NCBI GenBank assembly: GCA_030647415.1
Contig: JAUSKB010000023.1
Span: 1-48,456, forward strand
DNA length: 48,456 nucleotides
Direction of reading: 5' to 3'
Origin: a bacterium
GTDB lineage: Bacteria; Patescibacteriota; Minisyncoccia; UBA6257; GWB1-50-10
The notes below the pieces were generated by a model, which did not search any database, was not told where the DNA came from, and saw only the letters and a list, made by a program, of their open reading frames with translations. Within the stretch, counting starts at the first letter, position 1. Each line of letters opens with the position of its first letter. Shown piece after piece: positions 39,633 through 45,119 of the stretch. A program made the translations under genes and the position numbers.

Positions 39633-39678
39633 CCAGAACTTGTCATTCCGGACGGCCGTCTGGAATGACAAGTTCTGG
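39633..39678. repeat. Long palindromic repeat (copy A) upstream of recQ
   Basis: 46-nt near-perfect hairpin: arms beginning CCAGAACTTGTCATTCC around a GACGGCCGTC core. A near-identical palindrome is at 40268-40309, on the other side of the small membrane-protein gene. Confidence 0.85.
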
Positions 39679-39786
39679 ATTTTATGGGAGGGGCGGATAC
39701 GCCGGCGGATAGAAGGCGGCGTACCACTACAGCGACGACCCTGTCCCTATGGGGCGAAGGCCCGGGGAAGCCGTGGGCGGTCCATG

Positions 39787-40180: not shown

Positions 40181-40267
40181 CCACGCAAAGCAAACTGAGG
40201 TGTCGGTTGGAACTGAAACAATGAGCGAGAATGTCCCCACCGGCATAACTTACTATGTAACAGTCCT

Positions 40268-40309
40268 AGAACTTGTCATTTCAGACGGCCGTCTGAAGTG
40301 ACAAGTTCT
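40268..40309. repeat. Long palindromic repeat (copy B)
   Basis: 42-nt palindrome with the same AGAACTTGTCATT arm and GACGGCCGTC core as 39633-39678. The gap 40181-40394 holds nothing else apart from a short GTACC-containing inverted repeat. Confidence 0.85.
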
Positions 40310-40394
40310 TGGTATTGAGAGAGACTGCCGGAGAGCCGAGGGATACCACCAGCGGTACCTCGAGAAGCACGGCGGCGGCGTGTGCCATATATAA

Positions 40395-41143: not shown

Positions 41144-41298
41144 GTTCGGTCGCATATCGCTTCTCCGTCCGCGTAATTCGCGAACGGAACAAGCAGTGGG
41201 GGTATTAGTACTCCTAGGCTAAACACCTTACGGTGCGTACACCGAGAGCCTATCAACCTGGTAGTCTTCCAGGGCCCCATAGTGTCTCATCTTGGGAG

Positions 41299-41332
<34 letters not shown>

Positions 41333-41570
41333 CGTCCGAACATAGCTACCTGGCGATTCACCTGGTGGCAAAGCCAGTAGACCAGAGGTTCGTTCAACCC
41401 GGTCCTCTCGTACTAGGGTCGACTTCCCTCAAACACTCACGCCGACAGTAGATAGAGACCAACCTGTCTCACGCATGTTCTCGCGCATTGCTGCGCGCAT
41501 AGGACTATATCTTCATCCAAGTTTTGGATGATCGACGTGTAGTCTCTACGGGGTTAATGTTATTTTATAA

Positions 41571-41729
41571 TTATTCTTCTCCGATTTGGGCTTTTATACT
41601 ATCTCCAATAGTTGATTCTATATCAACTCTTATGTCATTCAATTCCCAAAAAATCTTACGCAATACAACAAGTATTGCTATTAGAAGTCCAATAATTATC
41701 AATAAACTTAGTAGAATTATTATTTCCAT
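41571..41729 (-). CDS. Intron-encoded small membrane protein (52 aa)
   Basis: The ORF in the peripheral part of the group I intron reads MEIIILLSLLIIIGLLIAIL then VVLRKIFWELNDIRVDIESTIGDSIKAQIGEE. One strong membrane helix (residues 2-23) is followed by a charged amphipathic tail. It is unlike LAGLIDADG, HNH or GIY-YIG endonucleases and is far too short for them. A TATAAT box ends 6 nt before the ATG, so it has the same leaderless signature as chromosomal genes here. The stop lies shortly before the R element. An upstream extension to 41822 is possible but unlikely. Confidence 0.65.
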   Translation of the reverse strand: MEIIILLSLLIIIGLLIAILVVLRKIFWELNDIRVDIESTIGDSIKAQIGEE

Positions 41730-41735
41730 AATTTC

Positions 41736-41741
41736 ATTATA
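41736..41741 (-). promoter_or_regulatory. -10 box of the intron ORF
   Basis: Consensus TATAAT, 6 nt before the ATG; a GGACAA -35-like hexamer lies about 18 nt further upstream. Confidence 0.6.
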
Positions 41742-41983
41742 ACACAACTTCCCTCGGTATTGTCCGTCATGATTTTGGTCAAACCATGTGGATTCCACCG
41801 AAATAGTCGATTTTTGCACCATAACATTACTGCTATGGGCCGCCGTGATGTGATCTGTCTTCTATCTCTCTTCGTTGACGAAAAAAACTAAAACATACTC
41901 GACGTCTGAGTCCCAGATTCAAACCGTTCATGCGCCAATCGCTCGATTAGCACATCAACGGTTTGAACCCAGCTCACGTACCA

Positions 41984-42014
<31 letters not shown>

Positions 42015-43422
42015 GCTTCTTCACCCCCGGGATGTGGTGAGCCGACATCGAGGTGCCGAGCGCGGTCGTCGCTAGGGACGCTCGGACCGCACCAGCCTGT
42101 TATCCCCGGAGTAACTTTTATCCGTTATCTCCAACCTTCCTATGAAGCACTCGCGCATTATAAATAACGCGCGAGCATTGTTGTCGGGTCGCTAACCTCC
42201 GCTTTCGCGCCTGCGCGACTTGTAGGTCTTGCAGTTAAGCCGGCTTTTGCGTTTGCACGTCCAGCGCGATTTCCATCCGCGCCAAGCCGACCTTGATAGG
42301 CCCCTCCGTTACCTTTTAGGAGGGTTCCGCCCCAGAAAAACTGCCCGCCAGGCACTGTCCCTGTGCGTTTTTGCCGCACTGGTTAGACAGTAGCAATTCG
42401 AAGATGGGTGTTTCATTGACGGATCCACTCCGACCGAGGTCGGAGCTTCAAATCCTCCCCACTACGCTACGCAGCGAACCACTACTTTCAATACCAAGCT
42501 ACAGTAAAGCTTCCGGGGTCTTTTCGTCTTACTGCCGGTAACCCGCGTCTTCACGGGTATCGCACTTTCATCGAGCGTGCCGCTGAGACAGTTCTCCGAT
42601 CATTACGCCTTTCATGCGCTCCGGAACTTACCCGGAAAGGAATTGCGCTACTTTAACACGGTTATAGTTACCGCGGACATTGACGAGGGCTTCGGGCAGT
42701 GAGCCATAACCATCCTTGCGGATGACCACGACCCCCACCGTTAACCTTCTCGCATCGGTCAGGCGTCACCCCCTATACATCCTCTTGCGAGTTCGCAGGG
42801 AGCTGTGTTTTTGGTAAACAGTTGCCAGAGAAACTTTAGCTGCGGCCCCGCTTGCGCGGGGCAAGGCTTATCCCGAAGTTACGCCTAGCTTTTTTGCCGA
42901 GTTCCTTAGCGGCAGGTCACTCGTTCCCCTGAGGCTACTCGCCTCATCCACCTGTGGCGGTTTACGGTACGGGGCCAATAGCGCCCTTAGAGGGTTTTCT
43001 CGAGAGGCTCTTCTGCTGCATTGCCCACGGAAAACCGTGGACTGCCGCCGCCGCCGCATGCCGCCAGTGAAGGCCGACTCCCGGATTTGCCAGGGAGCCC
43101 ATGCTTACGGTAGCGATGTCAAACCAGTGAGACACGCAGCTCTATTTCCTCTGTCACCCCATCGGTATCTCGCTATTGGCGGGCTGGAATATTAACCAGC
43201 TGTCCATCAGCTGCGGCTTTCGCCATTGCCTAAGGGCCGCCTCACCCTCCGACGATGTTCGTTGCGGAGGAAACCTTGGATTTGCGGGGAGCGCGGTTTT
43301 CACGCGCTTTGTGATTACTCGTCCCAACATTCTCTCTTCCCTGCGCTCCACCGGCCCTCACGGATCCGGCTTCAGTGCACAGGAAATGCTCTCCTACCGT
43401 CGTTACTCGCCCGAATGCAACA

Positions 43423-43495
43423 CACGAATGAAATCGAATATAACCGAATAAAAACGCATTCGTTCAGTATTCGATTAGATTCGTTCATATTCGTG
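43423..43495 (-). repeat. 23S insertion of ATTCG/CGAAT words
   Basis: 73-nt AT-rich insertion beginning CACGAAT and ending ATTCGTG, with internal CGAAT and ATTCG repeats forming a long hairpin. Its word composition is like the arrays beside the ABC exporter genes. Confidence 0.75.
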
Positions 43496-44153
43496 GGCTC
43501 CATTCGAGCGAGCAGCGACCCGCGTCTTCGGTGGCGTGCTTAAGCCCCGGTAAATTTTCGGCGCACGCGTCCTCGAATAGTGAGTTGTTACACACTCTTT
43601 AAAGGATGGCTACCTCTAAGCCAACCTCCTATCTGTCAATGGACGCGCACTACCTTTCACACTGAGCACGCACTTGGGGACCTTAGACGGCGATCTGGGC
43701 TCTTCCCCTCGCGACCACGGAGCTTAGCCCCCGCAGTCTGACTCCCGCGCTTATACGTTCCGGCATTCGGAGTTTGATTGGTGGCCCGAGCTTTCGCCCA
43801 TTGGCTACCATCCAGTGCTCTACCTCCGGAACGGAACACGCGAGGCTAGTCCTAAAACTATTTCGGAGAGAACCAGCTATTACCAAACTCGATTAGCTTT
43901 TCACTCCTTACCCCAGCTCATCCGAGAGTGTTGAACAACTCACCGGTGCGGGCCTCCCTCTGTATTTCTACAGAGTTCACCCTGGCCAAGGCAAGCTCGT
44001 CTGGTTTCGGGTCTTACGCACGCGACTGAACGCCCTGTTCAGACTCGGTTTCCCTGCGGCTTCGTCGCCTGAGGCGACTTAACCTTGCCGCGTACGTAAA
44101 GTCGTTGGGTCATTCTTCAATAGGCACACCGTCACCCCGTGTGCGCAGCACAC

Positions 44154-44254
44154 AGTTGGCTAGTTTGTTAGTCACGCTTCGCTTTGGTTTGTTAGTTTGA
44201 AGACTAATCAACTAATAAACTGCAAACGAGCGTAGCGAGTGAAACTATTAAACT
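44154..44254 (-). repeat. 23S hairpin insertion, copy 1 (101 nt)
   Basis: Extra sequence relative to E. coli 23S, on the tip of a helix with GTGTGCGCAGCACAC-type flanks. It folds on itself through AGTTTGTTAGT and ACTAATCAACT-type arms and CGCTTCGCT/AGCGTAGCG. 93 of 101 positions match the insertion at 44666-44766. Confidence 0.85.
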
Positions 44255-44332
44255 GTGTGCTACGCACACTTAAGGCTCCGGTTCCTTGTAAGTGGATGGT
44301 TTCAGGTACTATTTCATCGCCCTCCCGGGCTG

Positions 44333-44376
<44 letters not shown>

Positions 44377-44554
44377 CAGGTATTTAGCCTTGCCAGATAG
44401 TACTGGCGGATTCCCCCGAGGTTTTTTGGCCTCGAGGTACTCAAGGATACAGACGAGAGTTCGCTCGGTTTTCGTCTACCGGCCTATCACCGTCTTTGGG
44501 TCCGCTTTCCAGCGGATTCGACTAACCGGCGAGTTTGTAACTCTCTATCGGCAT

Positions 44555-44623
44555 AACCAAACAACAAACAACCTACAACCTACAACGATGAAGTCGTTGG
44601 TTGTGTGTTGTTCGTTGTCGGTT
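44555..44623 (-). repeat. 23S hairpin insertion of CAACAA/TTGTTG words
   Basis: 69-nt insertion; the left part (AACCAAACAACAAACAACC) is complementary to the right (GGTTGTGTGTTGTTCG...GGTT), with a short ACGATGAAGTCGTT core. It replaces a short loop of the E. coli molecule. Confidence 0.8.
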
Positions 44624-44665
44624 ACCCAAAGTGTCCACACCTTACAACCCCCATGCACAGCACGC

Positions 44666-44766
44666 AGTTAACTAGTTTGTCAGTTACGCTTCGCTTTAGT
44701 TTGTTAGTTTGAAAACTAATCAACTAATAAACTGCAAACGAGTGTAGCGAGTGAAACTAATAAACT
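44666..44766 (-). repeat. 23S hairpin insertion, copy 2 (101 nt)
   Basis: Same length as and 93/101 identical to 44154-44254 but located on a different helix, flanked by GTGCACGGC-type arms. Several of the differences are G/A or C/T changes that keep pairing as G-U or A-U. Confidence 0.85.
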
Positions 44767-45119
44767 ATGTGCCGTGCACGGGTTTAGGCTGCTCCCCGTT
44801 CGTTCGCCACTACTTAGGGAATGCAATTGGTCTATCTTCCTCCGGGTACTGAAATGTTTTACTTCCCCGGGTATGCGCCGCTCGCAAGCGTTACTCGCGA
44901 GGGCCGTGCGGGTTCGCCGCACGAGGTTGCCCCATTCGGAAATCTCCGGATCACAGGTTGCTACGCACCTCCCCGAAGCTTATCGCAGCTACGCCACGTC
45001 CTTCATCGCCCTGTGGTGCCAAGGCATCCACCATCCACCCTTATATTGCTCGCTCCGTTCGCGATCGGTCGCCTAAGGCGACCGCTCCGAACAGAGGTAT
45101 GATATGCGATTTTTTGGTA

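Follow-up and report, generated by a model that had tools for sequence, protein, structure and literature searches.

What is a 52-codon open reading frame (ORF) doing inside a 23S rRNA gene, at a site where introns of related bacteria commonly house a homing endonuclease gene? The window, by which we mean the entire stretch of DNA analysed (48,456 nucleotides, contig JAUSKB010000023.1), contains such a case: a 484-nt insertion with a short AT-rich ORF in one of its loops. The answer that we consider probable is that the insertion is an L2593 group I intron which has lost an I-CreI-type gene from its P6 loop, and whose cassette is now occupied by a gene of 52 codons, AT-rich and unrelated to the lost one, that encodes a bitopic membrane protein and is probably expressed without a leader.

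The intron and its ribozyme core

The host genome (963,714 bp in 38 contigs, 99.65% complete) has a single detectable 23S rRNA gene, matched in a split alignment by RF02541 at 41185-45055 on the minus strand (2320 bits). The split falls within domain V, which reads ...GGGTTCAAACCGT, then 484 nt, then CGTGAGACAGG. The 5' exon ends in ...CAAACCGT with its last base at 41958, the intron runs from 41957 to 41474 and finishes with the omega G (41474), and the 3' exon starts at 41473. This places the insertion after E. coli U2593, between 23S positions 2593 and 2594, which is the I-CreI site (L2593); the first base of the 3' exon is base 2593 of the E. coli 23S annotated with 2903 nt and 2594 in the usual 2904-nt numbering. 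Both the exon borders and the identification as a group I intron at the I-CreI site, proposed in an earlier sequence-only reading, are borne out to the base. Since the 23S stretch upstream of the intron is single-copy in the genome, the ribosome must tolerate the intron unless it is removed from the RNA.

The Rfam group I model (RF00028, Intron_gpI) aligned end to end over 41848-41481 with 41.4 bits and E 3.9e-9. The gathering score of 50 is not reached, probably because the ORF forms a 162-nt insertion in P6. The conserved core P3-P4-P6-P7-P8 is present together with the R and S elements of P7, and the intron with its 5' exon folds far more stably than shuffled sequences (z -8.9). The intron and its core elements are as follows.

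41474..41957, minus strand: group I intron, 484 nt (RF00028 match, split 23S alignment, P3/P9 covariation, E. coli numbering)
41920..41965, minus strand: P1, formed by 5' exon CAAACCGT (41965-41958) and guide ACGGTTTG (41927-41920) (sequence, fold, pair counts)
41806..41811, minus strand: 5' strand of P3, ATCGAC, pairing with GTCGAT at 41536-41531 (covariation)
41540..41544, minus strand: 5' strand of P7, GACTA (R element), pairing with TAGTC at 41507-41503 (RF00028 alignment, pairing counts)
41514..41530, minus strand: P8 hairpin, CATCCAA/TTGGATG (pair counts)
41482..41497, minus strand: P9 hairpin, CGCGCA-GCAA-TGCGCG (99% of cells paired in about 136 introns)

P1 comprises 8 bp, with a U-A pair at the splice site (41958/41927). 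The usual group I splice-site pair is a U.G wobble; across the L2593 introns of this clade UA was counted 70 times and UG 5 times. In P3, 93% of cells are paired over 70 introns, a value somewhat inflated by choosing the register of best pairing in each intron, against 69% on average and 74% at most when the 3' strands were shuffled among introns. Paired cells across homologues amount to 337/350 in P7 and 806/816 in P9, where most positions show several pair types. In homologues, compensatory base changes preserve both P3 and P9. The ribozyme would be expected to join the rRNA exons, and the junction would then read CAAACCGT-CGTGAGAC.

Elsewhere in the window, intergenic DNA contains at least two very similar copies of an inverted repeat (aacttgtcatt..gacggccgtc..aatgacaagttct), at 39640-39680 and 40267-40310, which resemble a small palindromic repetitive element or a terminator.

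The P6 cassette among related introns

With a covariance model of the intron 3' half plus exon, the intron was detected in 15 of 42 genomes of the family, 89 of 244 of the order, 105 of 384 sampled from the class and 22 of 380 sampled from the phylum, at thresholds that differ between these sets. From related Patescibacteria we extracted 163 distinct introns at the site with both exon borders found. The window intron, inserted after U2593, has a core of common descent with these L2593 introns, the nearest being that of L125 (79% identical over 300 columns). The limits of the P6 loop could be set in 153 of the 163. The loop is shorter than 60 nt in 64 and 60-89 nt in 2, it contains an I-CreI/I-MsoI-like LAGLIDADG gene in 49, and in the remaining 38 it holds a non-endonuclease insert of at least 90 nt, with a significant small ORF in 5 (the window included) and without one in 33. 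In phmmer the endonucleases of this site score as relatives of I-CreI and I-MsoI (E about 1e-14 to 1e-31). The earlier reading is borne out in that LAGLIDADG genes are common here, with 49 in 153 introns. The window intron is one instance of a broader variation at L2593, where the P6 loop can be without cargo or house an endonuclease gene, a structured RNA domain or a small orphan gene.

The P6 insert of the window intron spans 41552-41748 and contains the following elements.

41742..41748, minus strand: GTTGTGT, 5' end of the P6 cassette, the same as in endonuclease-bearing introns
41736..41741, minus strand: TATAAT, an extended -10 box (TG T TATAAT), 6 nt before the ATG (sequence, host spacing peak)
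41571..41729, minus strand: 52-codon ORF MEIIILLSLLIIIGLLIAILVVLRKIFWELNDIRVDIESTIGDSIKAQIGEE, predicted single-span membrane protein (coding signals; without a homologue found)
41552..41560, minus strand: ACATTAACC, closing the P6 cassette on its 3' side; the endonuclease genes in L013, L056, L072 and L083 have the same 3' end

The ends of the insert are informative about its past. Both flanks, GTTGTGT and ACATTAACC, are found exactly in 7 of the 49 endonuclease introns versus 2 of the 104 others, and with at most one mismatch in 19 of 49 versus, again, 2 of 104. Those two are the window intron and L066, where an endonuclease cassette has shrunk to 49 nt. On these counts the most likely ancestor of the window intron is one with an endonuclease, its lineage having formerly carried an I-CreI-type gene in P6. 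The gene would later have been lost, and an unrelated 52-codon gene would now fill exactly the same cassette.

The 52-codon ORF: gene, filler, toxin or relic

Is the ORF a gene at all? Its length exceeds that expected from dinucleotide shuffles (p 0.003), its codon-position composition is non-random (p 2.8e-4) and its frame has the best codon score of the six. Its GC content is 26% and its GC3 0.17, versus 0.71 in host genes, which marks the cassette as foreign or not yet ameliorated; cassettes with endonuclease genes are likewise AT-rich relative to their cores. The -10 box in TGTTATAAT lies exactly 6 nt from the ATG, as had been noticed, and is preceded by TG. This is the distance that the host prefers: over 180 genes in 262 kb (213 kb of other host contigs, L232-L248, plus the window), -10-like hexamers peak sharply at 6 nt before the ATG, with 10 of 180 genes compared with about 1 at most other positions. 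Shine-Dalgarno-like sites are rare (18%), and leaderless genes look common in this bacterium. By this promoter grammar the small gene would be transcribed from its own extended -10 box into a leaderless mRNA starting at or near the ATG. ORF length, codon-position bias and the extended -10 box support a real leaderless gene.

Further evidence comes from the other occupants of the slot. We tested all 38 non-endonuclease inserts of at least 90 nt by dinucleotide shuffling, and an ORF with p <= 0.005 was found in five: the window intron (52 codons), L193 (42), L151 (55), L155 (70) and L153 (86), the next best value being 0.046. With the window set aside, as it was chosen for its ORF, four of 37 inserts reach this level versus about 0.2 expected. 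All five ORFs lie on the rRNA strand, start 16-33 nt into the insert and occupy most of it. Each is the best frame of six in its intron and deviates in codon-position composition (p of 5e-3, 6e-3, 2e-2 and 1e-5 in the four others), whereas five weaker insert ORFs show no codon periodicity (p >= 0.1). The five proteins have no obvious mutual similarity by eye; those of the window and L193 are predicted single-span membrane proteins and the other three are charged and helical-looking. Searches of the small intron ORFs against Pfam and PHROGs gave no credible match, the 86- and 70-aa ORFs had no relatives in viral contigs, and in genome_contigs the sole hit was the source genome of the 86-aa ORF itself, a Candidatus Giovannonibacteria MAG of the same class as the host. 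Near relatives of the small-ORF introns in the families of G366 and G416 comprise too few introns for a selection test.

These observations have to be weighed against the possibility that the P6 insert is non-functional AT-rich filler which replaced the endonuclease gene, that the ORF and -10 box arose by chance and that the intron is decaying. This alternative deserves serious attention although we judge it unlikely. It would account for the lack of a homologue of the 52-aa ORF in any collection searched and for the 33 of 38 inserts of similar size without an ORF, and low GC does make ATG, TATAAT and hydrophobic codons likelier. However, it fits poorly with the shuffling and codon-position statistics, with a -10 box placed at the preferred spacing of the host and with four more introns bearing equally significant ORFs in the same slot.

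What kind of protein would a real gene encode? A single stretch of the 52-aa sequence is strongly hydrophobic (Kyte-Doolittle 3.55 over 19 residues), and AlphaFold2 run on the single sequence predicts one helix over residues 2-48 (mean pLDDT 93), in keeping with the single-span membrane protein described before. The charges flanking the span, E2 before it and R24 and K25 after it, suggest that the protein would be inserted N-out/C-in with a cytoplasmic amphipathic tail. The host genome has no second copy of the ORF, no convincing relative was found in 244 order or 384 class genomes, and a comparison with genome_contigs, phages, viral contigs and plasmids returned only weak matches to the hydrophobic stretch (E >= 1e-3). 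No family match was obtained in Pfam, PHROGs or NCBIfam. The suggestion of a captured host gene thus finds no support.

A membrane peptide that punishes loss of the intron, in the manner of a type I toxin whose antidote RNA comes from the intron or its antisense strand, is quite improbable. In its size and single-span hydrophobic architecture the protein resembles small membrane toxins, and it has a promoter-like element of its own; but it matches no toxin family in Pfam, PHROGs or NCBIfam, no antitoxin RNA was recognised, and among the four parallel intron ORFs three encode charged proteins that are not membrane proteins, so that toxicity is no obvious common theme.

We also rejected, as extremely unlikely, the idea that the ORF is a shrunken or decayed LAGLIDADG gene. 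It does sit in the slot and between the flanks of the endonuclease cassette, and true remnants exist elsewhere, in L075 and L070. That in L075, by contrast, is obvious by eye, while a profile search detects no endonuclease similarity in any of the six frames of the window intron. With filters off, similarity to 21 endonuclease proteins or genes is confined to the last 15 nt of the cassette, and among the 163 introns no intermediate links the two sequences. The 61-codon antisense frame (41557-41742, plus strand), longer than the sense ORF and also stop-free, has hardly any claim to be the real gene, since its GC is highest at position 2 (0.24/0.45/0.16), unlike in genes, its codon score is lower and codon-position bias favours the sense frame, all four parallel ORFs lie on the rRNA strand, and no -10 box is seen upstream of it.

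Possible payloads of an rRNA intron, and known systems

For a small leaderless membrane-protein gene in a former endonuclease cassette, the likeliest role would be that of a payload of a formerly mobile intron, with the protein not itself spreading the intron. Of the three roles offered by the sequence-only reading (cargo, intron-keeping toxin, captured host gene), cargo is the best supported, on account of the intact cassette ends and the four other introns with different small ORFs. The cores of L151 and L153, from the same bacterial family, are 84% identical and their ORFs differ, which suggests payload exchange, an idea drawn from five introns each with a different ORF. We put forward more tentatively, as a possibility short of an even chance, that the P6 loop of Patescibacteria L2593 introns is a general cargo bay: endonuclease genes, small orphan genes or structured RNA would be swapped on one ribozyme chassis, and the non-endonuclease payloads would keep immobile introns in an essential gene.

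How does this compare with known systems? The Cr.LSU intron of Chlamydomonas, with I-CreI / I-MsoI, occupies the same 23S site, and the endonucleases in relatives of the window intron are homologous to its own; the window intron differs in being without one. Bacterial 23S intervening sequences (IVSs) are not ribozymes and are excised by RNase III without ligation. Those with a 23S_rRNA_IVP gene are similar in that a small protein gene lies within a 23S insertion. The window insertion, unlike them, has a group I core, sits at a conserved site of the catalytic centre and gives no Pfam match to IVP, so we rejected its assignment as an IVS. We know of no bacterial group I intron with a payload other than an endonuclease, and we found no report in the open-access literature of small non-endonuclease genes in such introns.

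Part of the text of a review of bacterial group I introns (PMC3984707) names no intron products other than endonucleases, so that such introns are portrayed as having either an endonuclease or no gene. Tsurumaki et al. (2024; PMC11270868) described CPR/Patescibacteria group I introns at 23S position 2593 with LAGLIDADG_1 genes, interspersed with introns that lack an ORF or have a degenerate endonuclease ORF; the window intron shares their site, clade and intron family and carries in addition a small Pfam-less ORF. In that study ORFs were classed by Pfam domains, 99% of those in 23S being endonucleases, and an intron with a small Pfam-less gene would therefore count as ORF-less. In the passages located in its main text, no small non-endonuclease gene apart from 23S_rRNA_IVP is mentioned. 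Therefore L2593 CPR introns with LAGLIDADG genes, with degenerate ones or without ORFs are known already, and what is new is the small candidate non-endonuclease gene in the endonuclease slot. The nearest precedent is rps3 in the group IA intron mL2450 of fungal mitochondrial rnl, which has been proposed to protect its intron from erosion (PMC7902536). In both cases a non-endonuclease protein gene lies inside a group I intron of large-subunit rRNA; the fungal intron is organellar, occupies another site and encodes a conserved ribosomal protein, whereas the window intron is bacterial and holds an orphan of 52 aa that has a promoter-like element of its own.

If the gene is real, it shows that other genes can gain a safe and permanently present locus in an rRNA intron once homing has ended, comparable to that of fungal rps3. 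This would bear on the persistence of rRNA introns in many reduced-genome Patescibacteria, and it would flag a class of small genes which annotation pipelines hide under 'rRNA'.

Several other L2593 introns have unusual contents. About nine (L142, L144, L132, L141, L125, L160, L173, L175 and L164) hold a strongly structured P6 domain of 160-260 nt with no ORF (inserts L249-L257; -0.34 to -0.48 kcal/nt), most with a long terminal stem of about 20 bp and a hairpin right before the 3' arm; these domains may be MITEs or structured RNA payloads. Insert L249 has a sub-threshold tRNA-like part with the end CCACCCACCA; ARAGORN found no tRNA genes in the P6 inserts and Rfam no real match, the structured ones included. 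L086 and L110 encode a different, larger LAGLIDADG-like protein at the same site (233 and 220 aa, with GSLLGDARLE and GSLMGDARLE), from ORFs whose start lies nearer to the 5' end of the intron than that of the usual P6 gene. L183 apparently contains two successive group I cores between the L2593 exons, in a twintron-like or tandem arrangement.
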